Positions 22,860 to 33,842 of a stretch of DNA of 64,000 nt are shown here, in pieces. This stretch comes from Fimbriimonadaceae bacterium (GTDB lineage: Bacteria > Armatimonadota > UBA10988). Location of the stretch: positions 1 to 64,000 of the forward strand of contig JADZEX010000044.1 of assembly GCA_020850355.1 (NCBI GenBank). Reading direction: 5' to 3'. The notes below the pieces were generated by a model. The model was not told where the DNA came from. It worked only from the letters and a program-made list of their open reading frames with translations, and did no database searches. The position numbers and the translations under genes were made by a program. How positions within the stretch are numbered: the first letter of the stretch is position 1; the number at the start of each line of letters is the position of its first letter.

Positions 22860-24884
22860 ATGTGCGAACTCCGCCGCGGCGGTCGCCCGCGGACGGTCGT
22901 CGGCCGGCTCTGGGCCGGCCTGGCACTGCTGCTGCTGGCGGCGCCGCAGTCGCCGGCGCAGGACCTGCCCGCAGTCGCTGGTGCGGCCGACCGCGTCGAG
23001 GCGCCGGAGTTCCCCAGCGGCCTGGAGTGGCTCAACGTCGCGGCGCCGCTGCGGCTGGCGGACCTGCGCGGCAAGGTCGTGCTGCTCGACTTCTGGACCT
23101 CCTGCTGCATCAACTGCCTGCACATCCTGCCGGAGCTGGCCAAACTCGAAGCGAAGTACGCCGACGAGCTGGTGGTGGTCGGCGTCCACTCGGCCAAGTT
23201 CACCGCCGAAGGGCAGACCGCCAACATCGCCCAGGCGATTCGGCGCTACGAGATTGCGCATCCCGTGCTCAACGACCTGGGCTTTCAGGTTTGGCAGCAG
23301 TACCGCGTGCGCGCCTGGCCGACCTTCGTGCTGCTCGGTCCCGACAGTCGGGTGGTCGGCACCCAGGCAGGCGAGCTGACGTTTGAGGACCTCGACCCGC
23401 TGATCGCCGCCCAAGTGCAGCAGGCCAGCGCCGCCGGCACGCTCCGCCGCGGACCGTTGCCGCGCCGTCTGGAGCGCGACCGGGCCCCGCGCAGCGTGCT
23501 GCTCTATCCGGGCAAGGTGCTGGCCGACGCTCCCGGTCGGCGGCTGTTCATCGCGGACTCGACGCATCACCGCTACCTCGTGACCGACCTCGACGGCCGG
23601 GTGCAGACCGTGATCGGATCCGGTGCGCCGGGCTTCGACGACGGTGACTTCGCGACGGCCACCTTCCGACAGCCGCAAGGCGTGGCACTGGTCGGTGCGA
23701 CGCTCTACCTCGCCGACACCGCCAACCACGCCCTGCGCGTCGCCGATCTGACGGCCCGGCGGGTCACCACGCTGGTTGGCACCGGGCGGAAGCCGACCAG
23801 CTCCAACCGCAGCGGCCGGGGCCGGCAGGTCGCGCTGCACTCGCCTTGGGAGGTGCTCCCGTCGGGCGCGCAACTGCTGGTAGCCAACGCCGGGTCGCAT
23901 CAGCTCTGGCTGGTCGACCCGCGCACCGCCGAGGCGCGGCCCTGGGCCGGCAGTGGCCGCGAGGACCTGCGCGACGGACCGCGGCTGAGCCCCGGCAGCG
24001 ACCAGCCCGATCCCGTCCGGACGGCGGCTCTGGCCCAGCCCAGCGGCCTCGCCAGCGCACCCGGACGGGTCTACTTCGTCGACAGCGAGACCAGCAGCCT
24101 GCGCTATGTCGACCTCGCCCGCGGCACGGTCCAGACGCTGGTCGGCCGCGGCCTGTTCGACTTCGGTGCCATCGACGGCCCGTACCCGCAAGCGCTGATG
24201 CAGCACCCGCTGGGCCTGGCGGTGGTCGGCGACAGCGTCTTTGTGGCCGACACCTTCAACTCCAGGATCCGGCGCTTCCACCTGCCCAGCGGCCAGCTCA
24301 ACACGTTCGCCGGGGGCAGCTTGCCGGGTGACAGCGACGGCCTCGGCGCGGCGGCTCGCTTCGACGGACCGGCTGGCCTCAGCGCGGCCGCGGGGCGGCT
24401 CTACGTCGCCGACACCAACAACCACGCCATCCGAGTGGTGGATCTGGCGACGGCCGCAGTCAGCACGCTGCTCTTGCGCGAGCCCGAGCGAGCCCGCCCG
24501 CCGCAGGGCGCCGGACGGCCGCCGCAGACCGTCGTGCTGCCGCCCGCCACGGTGCGGCCGGGCGCCGGCCGGCTGCGACTGCGGGCGCGCCGGCCGGCGG
24601 GCTTCCAACCCAGCCCCTGCGCACCGCTGCGGGTGAGCTTCGCGGAGTCGCCGTTGCTGTCAGGGGCCCGCAGCGGCCCGCTCCCCGCGGACGAACTGCT
24701 GCTGACTTTCGTGGCTGGCCAGGGCCGCCTCGCCGCCGAACTGGATGTCTACCTCTGCCGCAGCAGCGGCCACGGGGCCTGCTTCTTCGAGAGCCTGCGC
24801 CTCGAGCTGCCGCTGACCGTCGCCGCCAGCGCGCCGGGCCACGACCTGAGCCTGACGGTGGACCTGCCGCCGCCGGGTGGTTAG
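22860..24884 (+). CDS. Secreted thioredoxin-like protein with NHL beta-propeller
   Basis: The protein is 674 residues. After a signal peptide (LWAGLALLLLAAPQSPAQ) comes a TlpA/thioredoxin-like domain (about 40-185) with active site CINC in SCCINCLHILPEL. At least five NHL-type propeller blades follow (for example RLFIADSTHHRYLVTDLDG, LYLADTANHALRVADL, VFVADTFNSRIRRFHL). A C-terminal beta-sandwich region (about 560-674) resembles that of human NHLRC2 and bacterial homologues. It is predicted to be a periplasmic oxidoreductase or redox chaperone. I use ATG 22860 (GGGAG 6 nt upstream); ATG 22857 is adjacent. It overlaps the convergent caspase gene by 4 bp. Confidence 0.86.
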   Translation: MCELRRGGRPRTVVGRLWAGLALLLLAAPQSPAQDLPAVAGAADRVEAPEFPSGLEWLNVAAPLRLADLRGKVVLLDFWTSCCINCLHILPELAKLEAKYADELVVVGVHSAKFTAEGQTANIAQAIRRYEIAHPVLNDLGFQVWQQYRVRAWPTFVLLGPDSRVVGTQAGELTFEDLDPLIAAQVQQASAAGTLRRGPLPRRLERDRAPRSVLLYPGKVLADAPGRRLFIADSTHHRYLVTDLDGRVQTVIGSGAPGFDDGDFATATFRQPQGVALVGATLYLADTANHALRVADLTARRVTTLVGTGRKPTSSNRSGRGRQVALHSPWEVLPSGAQLLVANAGSHQLWLVDPRTAEARPWAGSGREDLRDGPRLSPGSDQPDPVRTAALAQPSGLASAPGRVYFVDSETSSLRYVDLARGTVQTLVGRGLFDFGAIDGPYPQALMQHPLGLAVVGDSVFVADTFNSRIRRFHLPSGQLNTFAGGSLPGDSDGLGAAARFDGPAGLSAAAGRLYVADTNNHAIRVVDLATAAVSTLLLREPERARPPQGAGRPPQTVVLPPATVRPGAGRLRLRARRPAGFQPSPCAPLRVSFAESPLLSGARSGPLPADELLLTFVAGQGRLAAELDVYLCRSSGHGACFFESLRLELPLTVAASAPGHDLSLTVDLPPPGG

Positions 24885-27800
24885 GGCGCGGGCGCCGGGT
24901 CGCTGCTGACCAGCCGGAAGCCGACCTCTTCCGGATAGCGCCGCGTCTCGAACCCGTCGCGGTGCGCGAAGAGCAGCTTGTACGGGGGGCACATGAAGTT
25001 GCCGCCACGGGCCACGGCGATCTTCGGCGGGCCGCCGGCCGGTGCATTGACCGGGTCCTCGCTGGGCATCGTCTGGTAGAACCGGCCGTCGTAGGCGTCG
25101 CGGCACCACTCCGAGGCGTTGCCGGCGACGTCCACCAGGCCGTAGGCGTTGGGGTCGAACGAGCCGACCGGCGCCAGCCTGGCGAAGCCGTCGTCGTAGT
25201 CGAGGTACGACCACCAGTGCTTCGGCATCATGTTCTGGAGCTGCATCAGGCAGCGGTCCGCGAAGTTGCCCGCCCCCTGCCCGGGCAAGCTACCCTCCCA
25301 GGCGAACAGCTCGCGCTCGACACCGCCGCGGGCAGCCCGCTCCCACTGCGCCTCCGACGGCAGGCTGCGACCTGCCCAGGCGGCGTAGGCCTGCGCGCCA
25401 AGCCAGGTCACGAAGGTCGCCGGGTGGTTCTCGAAGCCCTTGCGCACCAGGAAGCGGGTGGTCGACTTCTCGATTTCCGGCTCGCAGTTGGCGCCACGCG
25501 CCTCACCCCGGACGACGCACCATTGCCGACGTTCGGCGTCGGTCGGCTTGCGGTCGTTGAGGAACCGCACGAACTGCTGGTTGGTGACCTCGTGGAGGTC
25601 GATCCAGTAGCCGCTGAGCTGCACCTGCCGCTCGGGTGAGAAGCCCCGGAAGCAGTCGTCGTCGAACTTCAGATGGGCCAGCATCAGCGAGCGCTGCGCC
25701 GTTTCACAATCGGCGGCGCTGGCGCCCATGATGAACTCGGCGGCCGGGATCCAGACCTGCGGCATGGCGTCGCTGGGGCAGATGCGGTAGCTCAACGACG
25801 GACGCAGCGCCGCGGCGGGCAGGTAGTCGGGCAGTCGAAACGGCGGCTTCGGCGGCGGCTTAGGTGCCTCGACCACGGCGGGCCTGGGCGCCTCGGGCAC
25901 CTTCTGCAAGGTCACCGCCGGCAGGCTCAGAGGCTGGCCGAGCTGCACCACGAAGGGCTGGTCAGCCGGCAGGTAGCCAGGCAGCTCAAAGCGGGCGCGG
26001 TAGGTGCCGGGCAGCAGCTTGACCATCCCCGGTGCCACCTGCAGCGTCTGGTCAGGCAGGCCGAAGCTCACCTTGGCACCAGGCGGCGCGCTGGTGAATC
26101 GCACTTCGACTGGCGCCGGCTGCAGCTCGAGGCTGGCGCTGGTCAGCTCGTCGGGCCGCACCACCACCTTGGTTTCGCCGGGCAGGTAACCGGCCTGGCG
26201 GCCCGCCACGGGGTACTCGCCGGGCGGCAACTCCAGCTCACAGGGCGCCGTCAGCGGCGGCCGGCCCGGCAGCTCGACGCTGGCGCCAGCCGGTGTCGCG
26301 GTGATCCGCAGGCGACCCAGGACGGCTGCCAGCTCGACCGGCTCGGGCGAGTGGACGCCGGCCGGGGTGGCGGTCAGGGCAAACTCGCTGGCGCGGTACC
26401 CGGGCAGTGCCAAGCGGATGGTGTGCGGCCCGGCAGGCACGGTCAGAGTGGCGGGTGTGGTCCGCTCGGTGTCCTGCCCGTCGAGCAGGATCCGCGCCCG
26501 CGCCGGGACGCTGCTCACGACGACCGTCGCCGGGAGGGCTTCCAGCTTCACGCTGGGCAGCACCGTCGGGCGGTCAGCGGCCGCCGTGACGTTCAGCACG
26601 GCCTCCTTGTAGCCGTCGCGGCGCAGCACCACTTGCCGCTCGAAGGGCACCCCGAAGGTCACCGACTCGGGCGTCCGACGGCCGCTGTCGGTCAGTGCGC
26701 CGGTCGCGTCGCGCAACCAAATGGCGGCGCCTTCGGGCACCGACTGCAGGCGCACCTCGGCCAACAGCGGGTCGAGGCGGAAGGAGGGTGGGGTGACCAG
26801 TTGGCCAGCCCGCACGATCACGGTCTGAGTCGCCGGCCGGACACCGGACGCCCGTACCTCGACCTGATGCTCGCCGGTCGGCAGCACCAGCATCGCAGGC
26901 GTCGACTGGTCCAGCTTGGCGCGGTCGACCCAGATCTCCGCCCCGGCGACGCTGGCGTTGACCAGCACCTGGCCGACCAGGCGGGTCAGGTCGGCCATCA
27001 CGGGGGTCTGTTTGCCGGCCACCAGAGTCGTCGTGAAGCTGCGGTCCTCGTGATCCGGCAGAGTCACCCGCAGCGCCAGCGCGCCGGCTGGGCCGCGGTA
27101 GAGCAGCGGCGTGACGCCGAGGTTGTCGCCGCCCAACCAGACGGTGGCCCCGGCCGGCCGCGACTGCACCAGCGCTTCGGCCGCGGGCGGCAGGGCGACC
27201 GGCTTCGGACCGGGTGGCGGCGCGGTGCGGAGCTTGATGCTGGCGCTCTGCATGCCCGGGTCGAGCGCCAGCTCCAGCCGCTCGGTCTGGTAGCCGGGCA
27301 GCACCACGCTGTAGGTGGCCTCCTCGCCCGCCTCACCGTCGACCTCCAGCGGCGTGGTGCCGAGGAGCTGCCCGGCAGGTTCGTCGGGGCGCTTGCGAAA
27401 GACCTTCGCCGCCGCGGGCGTGACCGTGATCCGCAGCTTGCTCTTCGGCCGTGCCGGCAGCACCACGAACTCCCAGTTACCGCTGACCTTCTCGGCCTGG
27501 GGCAACTGCGACTTCTGTGGGTGGGTCCGGTTCCAGTCCGAGACACCGCCCTGCACTTTGTCGACCAGGCCACCCAGGCGGACCTGACCGTCTGGCGATC
27601 GCGCGCTGTCGAACGCCTGCAGCAGGTAGTGCGCAAAGACGCCCTGGCGCTCCTCGGGAATCTCCCAGGCCCGCTGCCCGACGCTGCAGGCCATCACCGT
27701 GGTGAGGTTCGGCACCAACTCGAGCCTCAGCCGCAGGTCCTTCGAGAAGCCCGCCTCCAGACTGCCGTCCTCGTCTCCTTTGCCGGCTCGCGGGTCGTTG

Positions 27801-28300
27801 CGGCAGGCATCGATCAGCAGCAGCACGTTGGCCGCCGCCAGGCCGGACAGCAGGGCCTCCGCCTCCTTGACCGCCAGGGCCGTCCCCGGCACGTCGTCGG
27901 GGTCGGTGTCGGAGGTCAGCAGGTAACTGGTCTGCTCGAGGCAGAGACCGTGTCCGGAGAAGAACACGATCACCGTGTCGCCGGCCTGCGCCTCGTCGCG
28001 GAGCTTGCGCAGTCGACTGCGTAGCAGCCCGCGGGTGGGGCGCGCGGAGTCGGTCAGCAGCGGGTGCTGTTCGCGCTGCTGCGGCGTGAAGTCGGCCGAC
28101 AGCAGCACGCGGATGTTGCGCTTCGGAATGCCGCAGCGGGCGAACCGCTCGGCGACCGTCAGCGCGTCGGTCGCGGCGAAGTTGAGGTCGGTGATCGAGT
28201 CATGGTCGTAGTTGCTGACCCCGATCGTCAGGACATGGTACTGTCCCGCCTGGGCCCCGGCGACCGCCAACCAGAGCAGCAGACACCAGCGAGTCGACAT
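24881..28300 (-). CDS. Secreted caspase-PEGA-SUMF1 fusion protein
   Basis: The protein is 1139 residues. A signal peptide (about 1-19) is followed by a caspase/metacaspase p20-like domain with the catalytic pair His117 (VFFSGHG) and Cys166 (LLIDACRND). Seven PEGA-like beta repeats span about residues 280-800 (each ending in a GYxxxx turn such as LPGYRASEFAL). The C-terminal 270 residues are a SUMF1/formylglycine-generating-enzyme-type domain (VWIPAAEFIMGA, EVTNQQFVRFLN, SEAQWERAARGG, DVAGNASEWCRDAY, ARGGNFMCPPY). Only the first of the two FGE copper-site cysteines is retained, so formylglycine formation is doubtful. ATG 28300 is chosen for its GGGAG site and signal peptide. It lies 76 nt after hypD on the same strand. 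Confidence 0.88.
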   Translation of the reverse strand: MSTRWCLLLWLAVAGAQAGQYHVLTIGVSNYDHDSITDLNFAATDALTVAERFARCGIPKRNIRVLLSADFTPQQREQHPLLTDSARPTRGLLRSRLRKLRDEAQAGDTVIVFFSGHGLCLEQTSYLLTSDTDPDDVPGTALAVKEAEALLSGLAAANVLLLIDACRNDPRAGKGDEDGSLEAGFSKDLRLRLELVPNLTTVMACSVGQRAWEIPEERQGVFAHYLLQAFDSARSPDGQVRLGGLVDKVQGGVSDWNRTHPQKSQLPQAEKVSGNWEFVVLPARPKSKLRITVTPAAAKVFRKRPDEPAGQLLGTTPLEVDGEAGEEATYSVVLPGYQTERLELALDPGMQSASIKLRTAPPPGPKPVALPPAAEALVQSRPAGATVWLGGDNLGVTPLLYRGPAGALALRVTLPDHEDRSFTTTLVAGKQTPVMADLTRLVGQVLVNASVAGAEIWVDRAKLDQSTPAMLVLPTGEHQVEVRASGVRPATQTVIVRAGQLVTPPSFRLDPLLAEVRLQSVPEGAAIWLRDATGALTDSGRRTPESVTFGVPFERQVVLRRDGYKEAVLNVTAAADRPTVLPSVKLEALPATVVVSSVPARARILLDGQDTERTTPATLTVPAGPHTIRLALPGYRASEFALTATPAGVHSPEPVELAAVLGRLRITATPAGASVELPGRPPLTAPCELELPPGEYPVAGRQAGYLPGETKVVVRPDELTSASLELQPAPVEVRFTSAPPGAKVSFGLPDQTLQVAPGMVKLLPGTYRARFELPGYLPADQPFVVQLGQPLSLPAVTLQKVPEAPRPAVVEAPKPPPKPPFRLPDYLPAAALRPSLSYRICPSDAMPQVWIPAAEFIMGASAADCETAQRSLMLAHLKFDDDCFRGFSPERQVQLSGYWIDLHEVTNQQFVRFLNDRKPTDAERRQWCVVRGEARGANCEPEIEKSTTRFLVRKGFENHPATFVTWLGAQAYAAWAGRSLPSEAQWERAARGGVERELFAWEGSLPGQGAGNFADRCLMQLQNMMPKHWWSYLDYDDGFARLAPVGSFDPNAYGLVDVAGNASEWCRDAYDGRFYQTMPSEDPVNAPAGGPPKIAVARGGNFMCPPYKLLFAHRDGFETRRYPEEVGFRLVSSDPAPAP

Positions 28301-28351
28301 CGCGGCTCTCCCGTGCCGCCGCGCTCCAAGCCGGCGGCTCGCCACGTCCCC

Positions 28352-28376: not shown

Positions 28377-29468
28377 TCAGGCCACCTGCCCGCCGTATTG
28401 GTGCCAGATGTAGCAGGTTCCTTCTTGCGACACCATGCATGGCCCGTACGGCCGGAGGGGGTGGCAGGCGCTTCGGAAGAGTCCGCACTCCGGCGGCTTG
28501 ATCTGCCCCAGCATCACCCGGTTGCACTGACAACCGGCTGGCATCTCGGCGGACTCAGCGCTGATTCGGAGGTCGAAGCGGACCCGCGCGTTCAGCTCGT
28601 CGAAGCGCTCCTGCAGCAGCAGGCCGGTGTCCGGCAGCTCGCCGAGGCCGCGCCAGACCGACGGGCGCACGTCAAAGGTGCGCGCCAGCGCCGCTTGCGC
28701 CTTGGCGCTGCCGTGCGGCTTCACCAGCCGGCGGTAGACATTGCCCAGGGCGGCGTTCTCCTGGCGCAGTTGGCGCAGGATTTCGCGAACGGCCAACAGC
28801 AGATCGACCGGTTCGAAGCCGGCCACGATGCAGGGCAGGTCGAACTCCGTGACCAGCGGACGCCAGGCCTCGGCGCCGATTACCACCGACACGTGGCCGG
28901 GCGCGATCAGCGCGTCGACCTCGATCTCGCCGGACCGCAGCAGCAGGGCCATCGCCGGCGGGGTCAGGCGGTGGGCCGTCAAGACCGACAGGTTGGCCGG
29001 CGGCCCGGCCTGCACCAGGGCTGCGGTCGGGGCGGCGGTGGTCTCGAAGCCGACGGCGAAGAAGCAGACCTCGCGGCCGGGATTCTCGCGGGCCTGGCGA
29101 ACGCAGTCGGCCGGCGAGTAGACGAGTTTGATGTCAGCGCCCTGTGCCGCGGCGTCGAGCAGCGAGCCCTCGCTGGTCGGCACGCGGAGCATGTCGCCAT
29201 AGGTCAGCAGCAGCGCGCCGCGGCGCGCCACCGCCAGCGCCTCGCGGACCTCGTGCTCCGGGCAGACGCAGACCGGGCAGCCCGGCCCGGCGATCAGCTC
29301 GACCTGCGGCGGCAGCAGGCTGCGCAACCCCCACTGACTGAGGCTGTGCTCGTGCGACCCGCAGACGTGCATGATCTTGACCGGCGCCTCGACCGGGGCC
29401 AGGCGCTCGATCTCGCGGACCAGCGCGGCGACCAGATCCCGTGACTGGTACTGCTCAAGACTGGGCAT
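28377..29468 (-). CDS. hypD: Hydrogenase maturation protein HypD
   Basis: The protein is 363 residues, normal for HypD. HypD with HypC assembles the Fe(CN)2CO unit of [NiFe]-hydrogenase. Conserved motifs are all present: MHVCGSHEHS, GPGCPVCVCP, GFETTAAPT, APGHVSVVIG, and the C-terminal [4Fe-4S] cysteines in CQCNRVMLGQIKPPECGLF and the later CHPLRPYGPC segment. It overlaps the end of hypC by 14 nt. The expected next gene, hypE, is not present; a caspase-fusion gene follows instead. Confidence 0.95.
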   Translation of the reverse strand: MPSLEQYQSRDLVAALVREIERLAPVEAPVKIMHVCGSHEHSLSQWGLRSLLPPQVELIAGPGCPVCVCPEHEVREALAVARRGALLLTYGDMLRVPTSEGSLLDAAAQGADIKLVYSPADCVRQARENPGREVCFFAVGFETTAAPTAALVQAGPPANLSVLTAHRLTPPAMALLLRSGEIEVDALIAPGHVSVVIGAEAWRPLVTEFDLPCIVAGFEPVDLLLAVREILRQLRQENAALGNVYRRLVKPHGSAKAQAALARTFDVRPSVWRGLGELPDTGLLLQERFDELNARVRFDLRISAESAEMPAGCQCNRVMLGQIKPPECGLFRSACHPLRPYGPCMVSQEGTCYIWHQYGGQVA

Positions 29469-29688
29469 CGGCGTCCCCCGGCTGCAGCTCGTCGAACAGT
29501 GCCCAGGTGCTCTCCGCCTCAGCCTCGTCGAGCACCGTCAAGGCATAGCCGGCATGGATGATCACATGATCGCCCACCGCCACCTCGTCGAGCAGATCGC
29601 GGCGCGCCCGCTGCGTGACGCCGTGCAGCTCGACGACGACTTCGTCAGACGTCACGGCAGTGACCTTCATCGGTACGGCGAGACACAT
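29455..29688 (-). CDS. hypC: Hydrogenase maturation chaperone HypC
   Basis: The protein is 77 residues and begins MCLAVPMKV, the invariant HypC/HupF N-terminus whose Cys2 binds the iron centre and HypD. The rest folds as a small beta-barrel (VGDHVIIHAGYALTVLDEAEA). Its ATG overlaps the stop codon of hypF by one base (TGATG), and its end overlaps hypD by 14 nt, so all three genes are translationally coupled. Longer upstream starts in the same frame would lie inside hypF and are unlikely. Confidence 0.95.
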   Translation of the reverse strand: MCLAVPMKVTAVTSDEVVVELHGVTQRARRDLLDEVAVGDHVIIHAGYALTVLDEAEAESTWALFDELQPGDADAQS

Positions 29689-31961
29689 CAGTGGTTCCCC
29701 AGTGCTGCTGCCACCACCGCCTGCCCGAGGCTGAGACCGCCATCGTTGGGCGGCACACGGCGGTGCACAAGCACCTCGAGACCTTTCGACTGCAACTGGC
29801 TTGCCAGCAGCTCCAACAGCAACAGGTTCTGGAAGCAGCCGCCGCTCAGCGCGACCGTCGCGACGCCCGTGGCGTCGGCCAGTTGCCGACACAGGTCGGC
29901 GGTGGTCTGCGCCAGCCCGCGGTGGAAGCGCATCGCCAAGACCGGCGCTGCGACGCCGGCCAGGCGCTGCTCGACGGCCGCCCGCAGGGCCGGCTCCCAG
30001 TCGATCTGGCGGACCTCACCGGGCAGCAGCCCAAACGGCAGCCGGCCTGCCTCGGCGGGGTCGGCCTGACCCTCCAAAGCGACCGCCGCCTCGCCTTCGT
30101 AGCGGCTCGTGGGGCGGCACCCGAGCAGCGCGCTGAAGGCGTCGAACAGCCGGCCGGCCGAGCTGGTCGCCGGGCATTGCACCTGGCGGGCAATCATCTG
30201 GCGGACGAACGCTGCCCGCGCGGCGTCGGGCCACCAGGCCTCCGGCAGCGGCAGCCCGACCTGCTGCGCCAGCGCCAGGGCGATCCGCCAGCCCTGCCGG
30301 ACCGCGGCCTCCCCGCCGGGCAGCACGAACGGCCGCAGGTGGGCCAGGCGACGGTAGCCGCGACAATCTGCCAGCAACACCTCGCCACCCCAGATGCTGC
30401 CATCGGGGCCCAGCCCGGTGCCGTCAAAGGTCACCCCGAGCACTGCGTCAGCGCGGTCGTGGTCGGCCAGGCAGGCTGCCACGTGCGCGTGATGGTGCTG
30501 CACGGCAATGGTGGGCAGGCCCGCCGCCGCGGCCCGTTGCACGGCGTAGCGCGTGGCCAGGTAGTCGGGATGCAGGTCGTGGGCCAAGACGGCCGGACGC
30601 AAGCCGAAGAGCTGTTCGTAGTCGGCGATGCCGGCCTCGAACGAGGCCAACGCCGGCTCGCTTTCCAGGTCGCCGACGTGCGGCGAGAGGAACGCCTCGC
30701 CGTCGTGCAGCAGGCAGAAGGTGTTCTTCTGGTGAGCCCCGACCGCCAGCACCGTGGCCGGTCGCCGTTGGCTGAGCCGCACTGGCTCGGGCGCGTAGCC
30801 GCGACTGCGCCGCAGTGGCAGCAGGCCGCCCGACCAGGCCACCGCCACACTGTCGTCGCAGCGCCGGGCAATCCGCCGGTCGTGCGTCAGCACCGCCTCG
30901 ACCAGCGGCCCGAGCCGCGCCAGGGCCTCGTCGTCGGCGTACGCCATCGGCTCGTCGGAGAGGTTGCCCGAGGTCAGCACCAGGGGCTCGCCAACCGCCG
31001 CCAGCAGCAGGTGGTGCAACGGCGTGTAGGGCAGCAGCAGCCCGACGCGACGCAGCCCCGGGGCCACCTCTGGCGCCAGATCGTAGGCGGCTCCCTGCGG
31101 CAGTAGCACAATCGGCGCGGCGGGCGAGGCCAGCAGCGTGGCCGCCGCCGGGCTGACCGTCGCCACTGCCCGGGCCGCCGCCAGGTCGGCCACCATCACG
31201 GCCAGCGGCCGGGCCTCGCGCAGTTTGCGCTCCCGCAGTGTTGCGACGGCCGCCGAGCTGCGGGCGCGGCAGGCCAGGTGGTAGCCACCCAGGCCCTTTA
31301 CCGCCAGCACGGCGTCGGACCGCAACAGCTCCGCGGCGGTGGCCAGCGGCGCACCCGGCAGGGGCTCCCCGGTGCCGCTGAGCAGGCGCAGTTGCGGACC
31401 ACAGACCGGGCAGGCGACGGGCTGCGCGTGGAAGCGGCGGTCGCCCGGGTCGTGGTACTCGGCGGCACACGCGGCGCACAGCGGGAACCCGGCCATCGTC
31501 GTCCGCGGCCGGTCATAGGGCACCGCGGTGATGATGCTGAAGCGCGGACCGCAGTGGGTGCAGTTGGTGAAGGCGTACCCGGCGCGGCGGTCGGCGGGAT
31601 CGGCCACCTCGGCGCAGCAGGCCGGGCAGGTCGCCAGATCGGGCAGCACCCAGGCCAGCTCACGGCCCCGGTCGGCGCTGGCGGCAATCAGGAACTCGGC
31701 GTCACCCTGCACCGGGAGTTCACGGACCACCAGCTCGGCGATCTGCCCCGGCGGCGGGAACTCCGCCAGCAGGCGGGCCTGGAAGTGGGCCAGCTCGGCC
31801 GGCGAACCTTCGGCCTCGATCACCGCCCCCTGGCCGTCGTTGCGCACCTCGCCGGACACGCCGCAGGCGCGCGCCAAACGGTAGACGAACGGTCGACAAC
31901 CAACCCCCTGCACCAACCCGCGCAGCCGCAGCTCGCGCCGACTTCGTGGTCCGCTCGTCAT
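29688..31961 (-). CDS. hypF: Carbamoyltransferase HypF
   Basis: The protein is 757 residues, the usual length. HypF makes the thiocyanate precursor of the cyanide ligands of [NiFe]-hydrogenase from carbamoyl phosphate. Domains in order: acylphosphatase (about 1-90, RLRGLVQGVGCRPF), two zinc fingers (CPAC...CTHC, CAAC...CPVC), a YrdC-like domain (AVKGLGGYHLAC) and a Kae1-like domain with the metal motif HHHAHVAACL. ATG 31961 begins directly at the acylphosphatase domain. There is no clear ribosome site, and a -10-like TATGCT lies only 13 nt before the ATG, suggesting a very short or absent 5' leader. Confidence 0.95.
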   Translation of the reverse strand: MTSGPRSRRELRLRGLVQGVGCRPFVYRLARACGVSGEVRNDGQGAVIEAEGSPAELAHFQARLLAEFPPPGQIAELVVRELPVQGDAEFLIAASADRGRELAWVLPDLATCPACCAEVADPADRRAGYAFTNCTHCGPRFSIITAVPYDRPRTTMAGFPLCAACAAEYHDPGDRRFHAQPVACPVCGPQLRLLSGTGEPLPGAPLATAAELLRSDAVLAVKGLGGYHLACRARSSAAVATLRERKLREARPLAVMVADLAAARAVATVSPAAATLLASPAAPIVLLPQGAAYDLAPEVAPGLRRVGLLLPYTPLHHLLLAAVGEPLVLTSGNLSDEPMAYADDEALARLGPLVEAVLTHDRRIARRCDDSVAVAWSGGLLPLRRSRGYAPEPVRLSQRRPATVLAVGAHQKNTFCLLHDGEAFLSPHVGDLESEPALASFEAGIADYEQLFGLRPAVLAHDLHPDYLATRYAVQRAAAAGLPTIAVQHHHAHVAACLADHDRADAVLGVTFDGTGLGPDGSIWGGEVLLADCRGYRRLAHLRPFVLPGGEAAVRQGWRIALALAQQVGLPLPEAWWPDAARAAFVRQMIARQVQCPATSSAGRLFDAFSALLGCRPTSRYEGEAAVALEGQADPAEAGRLPFGLLPGEVRQIDWEPALRAAVEQRLAGVAAPVLAMRFHRGLAQTTADLCRQLADATGVATVALSGGCFQNLLLLELLASQLQSKGLEVLVHRRVPPNDGGLSLGQAVVAAALGNH

Positions 31962-31973
31962 GCCCGCCAGAAT

Positions 31974-31979
31974 AGCATA
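31974..31979 (-). promoter_or_regulatory. Candidate -10 box for hypFCD
   Basis: The minus strand reads TATGCT 13-18 nt before the hypF ATG, the same hexamer as two other promoters in this window. No clear -35 is seen at 16-18 bp. A start of transcription near 31967 would leave a leader of about 6 nt. Confidence 0.3.
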
Positions 31980-32006
31980 GTCGAAGTAATAGACAGTCGG
32001 GTCCAC

Positions 32007-32063: not shown

Positions 32064-32762
32064 TCAGAGGTTCGAGTTCCACTCGTTGTCGTACTCGTTG
32101 GCGTTGGTGTTCTTGTCGGTGAAGATCGGCTCCAACTTCGACCACTTGACATGGCCGTCGACGTAGCAGTTGTTCATGCCGTCGTTGTGCCGGTTCCAGC
32201 CGACCTGGCCGCGGTTCTGGGTGAGGTCCATCACACCAGCGCCGATGGAGTAGGGCGTGGCGCCCTCGCCCTCGGCGTACATGATCGTCCCGGCCGGGCG
32301 AGCGACTGCCGACATCGCGCGGCCCTGCGGGCCGGTGCAGTTCTTCGGGGCGCCGCCAGCGATGGTCATGCCCCAACCGTTGATGCCGTAGGCATAGCGC
32401 AGCGTGCCGGTGCTCGGGTTGCCAGCATCGGCGACGTCCCAGAACGAGTTCGGCGTGACCGTCGTGTTGCGCGTCATGCGGTACTGCCGCGAGGGGCAGT
32501 CCATCGTCTGGCTGTTCTTCATGTAGGGCTGCACCAGGTCGCCCCACTTCTGGTTGCCGCGCGCAAACGGCACGTAGATCTCGTCGTAGTCCTGAGCATA
32601 CGACAACGAGGCGATGCCGATCTGCTTCATGTTCGAGGCGCAACTCGACTGCCGGGCCTTCTCGCGGGCCTTGGCGAAGACCGGGAAGAGAATGGCTGCG
32701 AGAATGGCGATGATCGCAATCACCACCAATAGTTCAATGAGGGTGAATCCTCGCTTCTTCAT
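32064..32762 (-). CDS. Pseudopilin-like protein, tandem copy B
   Basis: The protein is 232 residues. [20 protein letters not shown] is a canonical class III-type prepilin leader, cleaved after Gly with N-methylation of Phe. [16 protein letters not shown] and a globular domain follow, with H-X9-DG ([16 protein letters not shown]). It closely matches the next gene upstream over most of its length, so the pair arose by tandem duplication. AGGAG lies 6 nt before the ATG. It has its own promoter candidate (32878-32906) and its own terminator. These proteins are probably surface or secretion-associated; the exact role is unknown. Confidence 0.92.
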
Positions 32763-32877
32763 GTCCTGCTCCTGAACGGGGCCGTGGCCCGGCCCTTTGT
32801 GTAGTGTCTGGTCGCTGCGGTCCGATGGAGCGCTGCGCCGGGGCCGTCACGGGGCACCAGCGAGGGCTCCACGAGAG

Positions 32878-32906
32878 AGCGTAGTGCGTCCAGGGCAGGG
32901 TGTCCA
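32878..32906 (-). promoter_or_regulatory. Promoter candidate for pseudopilin copy B
   Basis: The minus strand has -35 TGGACA (32901-32906), a 17-bp spacer and -10 TACGCT (32878-32883). It lies just downstream of the copy A terminator and would give an untranslated leader of roughly 110 nt. Confidence 0.45.
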
Positions 32907-32931
32907 GGGTGTTAGGAAGACGTAACGTGAT

Positions 32932-32966
32932 CCGGCAGCGCGGGCCCGGCTGGCCCGCGCTGCCGG
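32932..32966 (-). terminator. Strong hairpin after pseudopilin copy A
   Basis: A perfect 15-bp stem (32932-32946 with 32952-32966) surrounds a 5-nt loop, 21 nt after the stop codon of copy A. On the minus strand the following bases are only moderately T-rich. Position and stem length support termination between the two tandem pilin genes. Confidence 0.65.
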
Positions 32967-32987
32967 CTGCGACCTCGGTCAACCGCC

Positions 32988-33680
32988 TCAGGGCCGGTTG
33001 CTGTTCCAGTCGTTGTCGAACTCGGTGGTGCTGCCGCCCAGGTCGGCGGTCAGGGCGTCGATCTTGGCCCACTTGACGTGGCCGTCGACGTAGGCGTTGT
33101 TCATGCCGTCGTTGTGGCGGTTCCAGCCGCACTGCCCCTGGGCGTTCGGCACGTCCATCACGCCAGCGCCGATGGAGTAGGGCGTGGCGCCCTCACCCTC
33201 GGCGTACATCACGACGTTGGCGGGGCGGTTGACGGTGGACATCGCCCGGCCCTGCGGCCCGACGCAGAACTTGGCGGTCGTTGCCAGGCTCCAGGCATTG
33301 ATGCCGTAGGCGTAGCGGTAGGTTGCCGTGCCGGGGTTGCCCGCGTCGGCGACATCCCAGTAGAACGGCGGCGTGCCAGCGGTGTTGAGCGTCACGCGGT
33401 ACTGCCGCGACGGGCAGTCCATGGTTTGCGTGTTCTTCATGTACGGGGTGATCAGGTCGCCCCACTTCTGGTTGCCGCGCGCAAACGGCACGTAGATCTC
33501 GTCGTAGTCCTGCGTGTACGACAACGAGGCGATGCCGATCTGCTTCATGTTGGACTGGCAACTCGACTGACGGGCCTTCTCGCGGGCCTTGGCAAAGACC
33601 GGGAACAGAATCGCGGCCAGGATGGCGATGATGGCGATCACCACCAGCAACTCGATGAGGGTGAACCCTCGCTTCTTCAT
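32988..33680 (-). CDS. Pseudopilin-like protein, tandem copy A
   Basis: The protein is 230 residues with the same prepilin leader as copy B ([20 protein letters not shown]) and near-identical segments such as [18 protein letters not shown] and [11 protein letters not shown]. Differences cluster in the middle and at the C-terminus. ATG 33680 has GGAGG 8 nt upstream; earlier in-frame starts would put a long hydrophilic stretch before the prepilin signal. The family is the DUF1559-like pseudopilin group. Confidence 0.92.
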
Positions 33681-33738
33681 CTGGTAATCCTCCGCCGCGC
33701 AGCGGACTGCGCAGCTCGACGTCTGATCTGTCTGCCAC

Positions 33739-33755
33739 CTGGCCGGCACGGCCAG
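33739..33755 (-). terminator. Hairpin between DUF1080-like gene and pseudopilin
   Basis: CTGGCC (33739-33744) pairs with GGCCAG (33750-33755) around a 5-nt loop in the 162-bp gap between the two minus-strand genes. There is no T-run. It may separate the aldo/keto reductase operon from the pilin gene. I found no convincing promoter in this gap. Confidence 0.25.
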
Positions 33756-33842
33756 CGGCAGTTCGCGGTGGCGGTGTTGCCCCAGGCAGACCACCCCGGC
33801 GACTCGACGCAGCGCGGTGAGGATTGTTCAGTTGTTGCGGAG

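Follow-up and report, generated by a model that had tools for sequence, protein, structure and literature searches.

A single gene in the window, the 64,000-nucleotide stretch of Fimbriimonadaceae DNA analysed here, encodes a caspase domain fused to PEGA repeats and a domain of the SUMF1 (formylglycine-generating enzyme, FGE) fold, behind a start that resembles a signal peptide. Most discussion of bacterial caspases treats them as proteases of death or stress in the cytoplasm. The locus raises the question of what a caspase built in this way might do outside the cytoplasm, and whether it is the unusual system for which the original prediction saw it as the best candidate.

Gene, caspase domain and PEGA array

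The open reading frame (ORF) runs on the minus strand from an ATG at 28300 to a stop codon at 24881-24883. An alternative in-frame GTG at 28345 would give an ORF of 24881-28345, longer by 15 residues, and is the less likely start, because GGGAGAG lies just upstream of the ATG and the ATG yields a clean signal-peptide-like beginning. The third-position G+C content of 0.91 indicates a real coding gene, and composition and codon use are uniform along the whole ORF. Pfam matches to Peptidase_C14 (aa 23-271, 5.2e-16), PEGA (8.4e-47) and FGE-sulfatase (aa 888-1131, 1.7e-45) all exceed their gathering cut-offs; together with hydropathy and sequence, they confirm that signal-peptide-like start, caspase, PEGA and SUMF1 parts belong to one 1139-residue chain, as had been proposed. 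The features are as follows, with the main basis for each.

24881-28300, minus strand: coding sequence of the probably exported caspase-PEGA7-FGE-like protein, 1139 aa, ATG start at 28300
28306-28312, minus strand: Shine-Dalgarno-like GGGAGAG, 5-11 nt upstream of the ATG (sequence)
28247-28300, minus strand: predicted signal peptide, aa 1-18, cleavage between AQA and GQ (sequence and hydropathy)
27452-28243, minus strand: caspase (Peptidase_C14) domain, aa 20-283 (Pfam, AlphaFold2 fold, alignment)
28166-28168, minus strand: Asp45, aligned with S1-pocket Asp95 of T. brucei MCA2 (Asp in 66/66 relatives)
27950-27952, minus strand: catalytic His117 (His in 66/66 relatives)
27803-27805, minus strand: catalytic Cys166 (Cys in 66/66 relatives)
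27662-27664, minus strand: Glu213, probable second acidic S1 residue, Asp211 of MCA2 (weak alignment; Glu in 63/66)
27251-27442, minus strand: PEGA repeat 1, aa 287-350 (family PEGA model)
27005-27175, minus strand: PEGA repeat 2, aa 376-432 (family PEGA model)
26798-26974, minus strand: PEGA repeat 3, aa 443-501 (family PEGA model)
26558-26761, minus strand: PEGA repeat 4, aa 514-581, the weakest at 14 bits (family PEGA model)
26363-26533, minus strand: PEGA repeat 5, aa 590-646 (family PEGA model)
26132-26317, minus strand: PEGA repeat 6, aa 662-723 (Pfam and family PEGA model)
25919-26110, minus strand: PEGA repeat 7, aa 731-794 (family PEGA model)
25811-25918, minus strand: proline-rich linker, aa 795-830 (sequence; low pLDDT)
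24908-25639, minus strand: FGE/SUMF1-fold domain without the FGE cysteine pair, aa 888-1131 (Pfam, FGE alignments)
24989-24991, minus strand: Cys1104, aligned with Cys336 of SUMF1; the position of its partner Cys341 is Leu (FGE alignment)

The predicted catalytic pair is intact: His117 lies within SGHG and Cys166 within DACRND, and GHG and DACR are invariant in an alignment of 66 relatives. With these relatives as the alignment, AlphaFold2 returned a caspase fold for the domain (pLDDT 93.4, pTM 0.91), so that the p20 fold, as predicted, and the His-Cys dyad of Peptidase C14/orthocaspases are both present. The best matches of this model in the PDB are MALT1 (1e-13) and metacaspases, at ~13-18% identity, and a Geobacter caspase homologue. 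As regards a p10 domain of metacaspase type, which orthocaspases lack, a profile comparison matched metacaspases over p20 only, and MALT1 over positions 2-196. The model of the full-length protein is of low quality, with a pLDDT of 67 and much of the FGE part below 50, and the fold search was made without it. The S1 pocket has been described for T. brucei MCA2 (PMC6426788). Acidic residues stand at two of its positions, Asp45 by direct alignment and Glu213 through a weak alignment only, and their conservation makes an Arg/Lys preference at P1 likely; the metacaspase S1 residue Cys92 has no counterpart, Ala42 being aligned there.

The "about seven" PEGA-like repeats of the original prediction number exactly seven. 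They lie in tandem and score 14-77 bits with a family-derived PEGA model, all above the best of 200 shuffles of the region (7.6 bits). Pairwise identity among them is 17-33%, which marks the array as old. The literature describes PEGA as a repeat found in proteins of the cell surface (PMC2447325).

The protein is probably a Sec-exported Arg/Lys caspase with a PEGA stalk and a ligand-binding FGE-fold tail that aims or gates the protease. Sec would deliver it to the periplasm or beyond, where the N-terminal domain would act as a cysteine protease cutting after Arg or Lys. The seven PEGA repeats could form an extended stalk, and the FGE-fold domain, its FGE active site lost, may bind a protein, glycan or peptidoglycan ligand and thereby aim or gate proteolysis. 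Swappable tails (PEGA, FGE, TPR, PD40, beta-helix) on one exported caspase core would allow paralogues to address different targets.

Recurrence, exchange of tails and predicted export

The gene is not a one-off, but one member of a family of caspases with predicted export in Armatimonadota and a few other phyla. The window genome alone has five C14 matches and a partial one on contig C71, and its architectures include caspase-PEGA-FGE (C64), caspase-STN-FGE (C12, the STN match being weak), caspase with a beta-helix (C46) and PEGA-FGE without a caspase (C49). A draft genome of the same family (G002, Armatimonadetes bacterium NC_groundwater_318_Ag_B-0.1um_71_9, JACPDV; 6.9 Mb, 72% complete) has 23 C14 matches, with tails comprising two PEGA+FGE, nine PEGA, and also TPR, PD40 and FGE alone. 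Two caspase-3xPEGA-FGE genes occur in G032, and the caspase-PEGA-FGE order extends to relatives belonging to other families of Armatimonadota and to a Candidatus Poribacteria MAG; a Planctomycetaceae MAG has caspase-PEGA. The search for the same architecture in other Armatimonadota, which had been suggested as a check, was thus successful. At the start of C71 (3-1438 of L051), a caspase-PEGA-FGE paralogue is cut by the contig end and is apparently frameshifted inside FGE, giving two overlapping ORFs. The caspase count of G002 represents a lineage-specific expansion.

In a tree of 110 caspase-domain rows (quick IQ-TREE search), PEGA+FGE and PEGA-only proteins are scattered, with at least 6 changes of each forced by well-supported (starred) branches. 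The caspase core has therefore recombined with tails repeatedly. This pattern bears on the main rival to a ligand-directed protease, namely an envelope housekeeping protease that carries out constitutive processing or maturation, with structural PEGA and FGE parts and no sensing or gating. PorK/GldK, whose solved chains were matched, are examples of FGE-fold domains that serve a structural purpose in the envelope; however, a single relative has as many as 23 caspases and tails are heavily swapped, which fits diversified targets better, and the housekeeping role seems rather unlikely. The family behind the gene is more interesting than the gene alone, and the view of this gene as the best candidate for an unusual system gives way to that of one member of a wider caspase family with swapped tails.

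In the N-terminus, MSTRWCLLLWLAVAGAQA followed by GQ, sequence and hydropathy point to an h-region and an AxA site, and no lipobox is present in the sequence at the AQA/GQ cleavage site. A hydrophobic stretch (11 residues with mean hydropathy >= 2.0) directly precedes the caspase in 81/105 relatives as against 6/475 control segments; among the 24/105 relatives without one, several are cases in which the motif search missed the protein start. Export is therefore predicted to be usual for these caspases, and it is the norm for the DACR(N)(D/E)P caspase group by this measure rather than a peculiarity of the window protein. The proposed export signal accordingly holds as a prediction, although export as a special trait does not, since it is predicted to be general in the group. 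A survey of 2012 had already marked numerous N-terminal helices as probable signal peptides (PMC3501461). The window protein's role is best placed, by inference, outside the cytoplasm. The alternative of a cytoplasmic programmed-death effector, in which the hydrophobic start is no signal peptide, would agree with much of the bacterial-caspase literature on cytoplasmic death or stress roles (review PMC5756287), but it is improbable given the hydrophobic start with its AxA site, a start conserved across relatives, and the description of PEGA as a cell-surface repeat.

Upstream of the gene are three hydrogenase maturation genes.

28377-29468, minus strand: hypD, upstream neighbour; linkage to the caspase not conserved
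29455-29682, minus strand: hypC, preceding hypD
29688-32006, minus strand: hypF, preceding hypC

The end of hypD lies 31-76 nt from the caspase start, so co-transcription is possible. A functional link to hydrogenase maturation was considered and rejected, as related genomes have other genes after hypD (hypE in G002), none of them a caspase; the conserved neighbours that had been looked for were not found in related genomes. In the window, no hypE adjoins hypD in the hypF-hypC-hypD group (28377-32006); in that place, a hypE-like gene is present in a relative of the same family (L174). Downstream, the convergent gene of a thioredoxin-NHL protein overlaps the caspase gene by 4 nt. No candidate for the caspase substrate was found. 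At 32064-33794 of the window, two DUF1559/prepilin-like genes lie in tandem, and their N-termini are almost the same.

The FGE-fold domain and its variable loop

By sequence profile, the C-terminal domain has the FGE fold and matches solved FGE structures; in that search the first few residues of the query differed from the protein, and the matches used all begin beyond these residues, apart from two FGE matches whose stretch starts at residue 12. The copper cysteine pair (336/341) is not present, as Leu replaces the partner of Cys1104, and the pair occurs in 0 of the 59 relatives with a readable tail. In an alignment of 69 domains, few columns vary as much as that of Cys1104 (Ser, Asn, Asp, Tyr and others, with Cys in only 3), which is flanked by near-invariant RGG, Arg1114 and GFR anchors. 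With one of the two copper cysteines lost and the site hypervariable among relatives, identity as a formylglycine-generating enzyme is very unlikely on sequence grounds, and the domain resembles a scaffold that carries a variable loop instead. The proposed SUMF1 domain thus stands as a fold and not as a probable working FGE.

It could still be supposed that the domain is a working enzyme, generating formylglycine on sulfatases or acting as an EgtB/SenA-type oxidase, with the caspase processing its product or the sulfatase. The strong FGE-sulfatase score and the retention of Cys1104 at the Cys336 position would suit such a role. However, in addition to the lost and hypervariable cysteine site, scores with the EgtB, SenA and GldK models fall far under their cut-offs, and no sulfatase genes occur among the scanned neighbours of the gene, all of which makes a working enzyme highly improbable.

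The scaffold reading is illustrated by a member of another Armatimonadota family (G081). Its locus (L243:3647-10731, contig C2) has a caspase ORF and, directly after it, an ORF that contains three PEGA-FGE units; a further three FGE units are spread over the next two ORFs. The caspase ORF is either separate or cut from the next ORF through a frameshift in the draft genome. The six FGE copies are mostly conserved and strongly divergent between RGG and GFR (dN/dS ~2.9 vs 0.32 elsewhere), which looks like the variation expected of a binding surface under diversifying selection. This variation resembles a DGR variable region. A DGR there is no more than a possibility: no reverse transcriptase was found in that genome (98% complete), the surroundings of the locus yielded no template repeat, and high GC3 alone favours NNC codons. 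The FGE tail of the window protein is a single copy, so diversification is seen only in the relative. DGR diversification of the window gene was rejected: the only reverse transcriptase found in the genome lies next to a CRISPR array and cas2, and the gene has a single-copy 3' end. That reverse transcriptase, with a cas2-like gene and ~37-nt repeats spaced ~73 nt at a contig end, belongs to C95 of the window genome (L066:13148-15183), an RT-CRISPR locus in Armatimonadota.

A broader and much more tentative possibility is that Armatimonadota and some other phyla possess an exported receptor-protease repertoire, in which one caspase core with exchangeable FGE-fold recognition tails, hypervariable in some lineages, would tell apart ligands outside the cytoplasm, such as surface molecules of phage, rivals or kin, and set off limited proteolysis at the envelope. 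A chimera created in assembly or binning from separate genes for the caspase and FGE parts, the join raised as a counter-explanation in the original prediction, might be suspected in a draft genome of 117 contigs, but its probability is negligible since the same fusion recurs in independent genomes and contigs and the ORF is uniform in composition and codon use.

Relation to known systems

With a group mostly predicted to be exported, its catalytic residues invariant and its tails often swapped, caspase proteolysis would be placed at the envelope, and the long-standing puzzle of frequent caspase-SUMF1-like fusions becomes testable. The SUMF1 part would be a binding scaffold, judging from its residues, and not the sulfatase-modifying enzyme speculated on in 2012. 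The fusions themselves are known, as the original prediction stated: metacaspase/FGE-sulfatase proteins have been published (PMC3501461, PMC4933709, and MaOC4 in PMC5756287), and the 2012 survey counted 33 among 671 sequences (PMC3501461). These likewise have an N-terminal C14 caspase and a C-terminal FGE-sulfatase domain, are widespread, and domain swapping had already been suggested for them; the window protein differs in the seven PEGA repeats between the two. PEGA is not mentioned in the text of that survey (PMC3501461), and literature searches found no publications pairing PEGA with metacaspase, or metacaspase with Armatimonadetes.

Several other systems share individual parts. MALT1 paracaspase and metacaspases (PDB 3uo8, 4af8, 7qp0) have the common caspase fold, the HG/DxCR (MALT1) dyad context and acidic S1 residues, whereas the window protein is bacterial, probably exported, and without death or Ig domains. 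Cyanobacterial DGR variable proteins with orthocaspase N-termini join a caspase to a C-type-lectin-like variable domain (PMC7517822); unlike these, the window gene has no DGR reverse transcriptase or template repeat. PorK/GldK, a T9SS ring lipoprotein, is a comparable FGE-fold envelope protein, but the window protein scores 80.4 against an equivalog cut-off of 350 bits, lacks a lipobox at the cleavage site and has no visible T9SS context.

A parallel to the C-terminal part is the OCTIN superfamily. The 2018 OCTIN paper described many bacterial FGE-like proteins without catalytic cysteines and with extended N-termini, which in some of them comprise caspase, kinase, DinB or PEGA domains (PMC5915273). 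The window protein similarly has the FGE fold without the cysteine pair, but its single chain, probably exported, carries both a caspase and an array of seven PEGA repeats ahead of the FGE part. Fusions of a caspase with FGE are thus known, as are FGE proteins that lack the cysteines and are extended by caspase or PEGA, and the combined caspase-PEGA7-FGE array is a variant of them.
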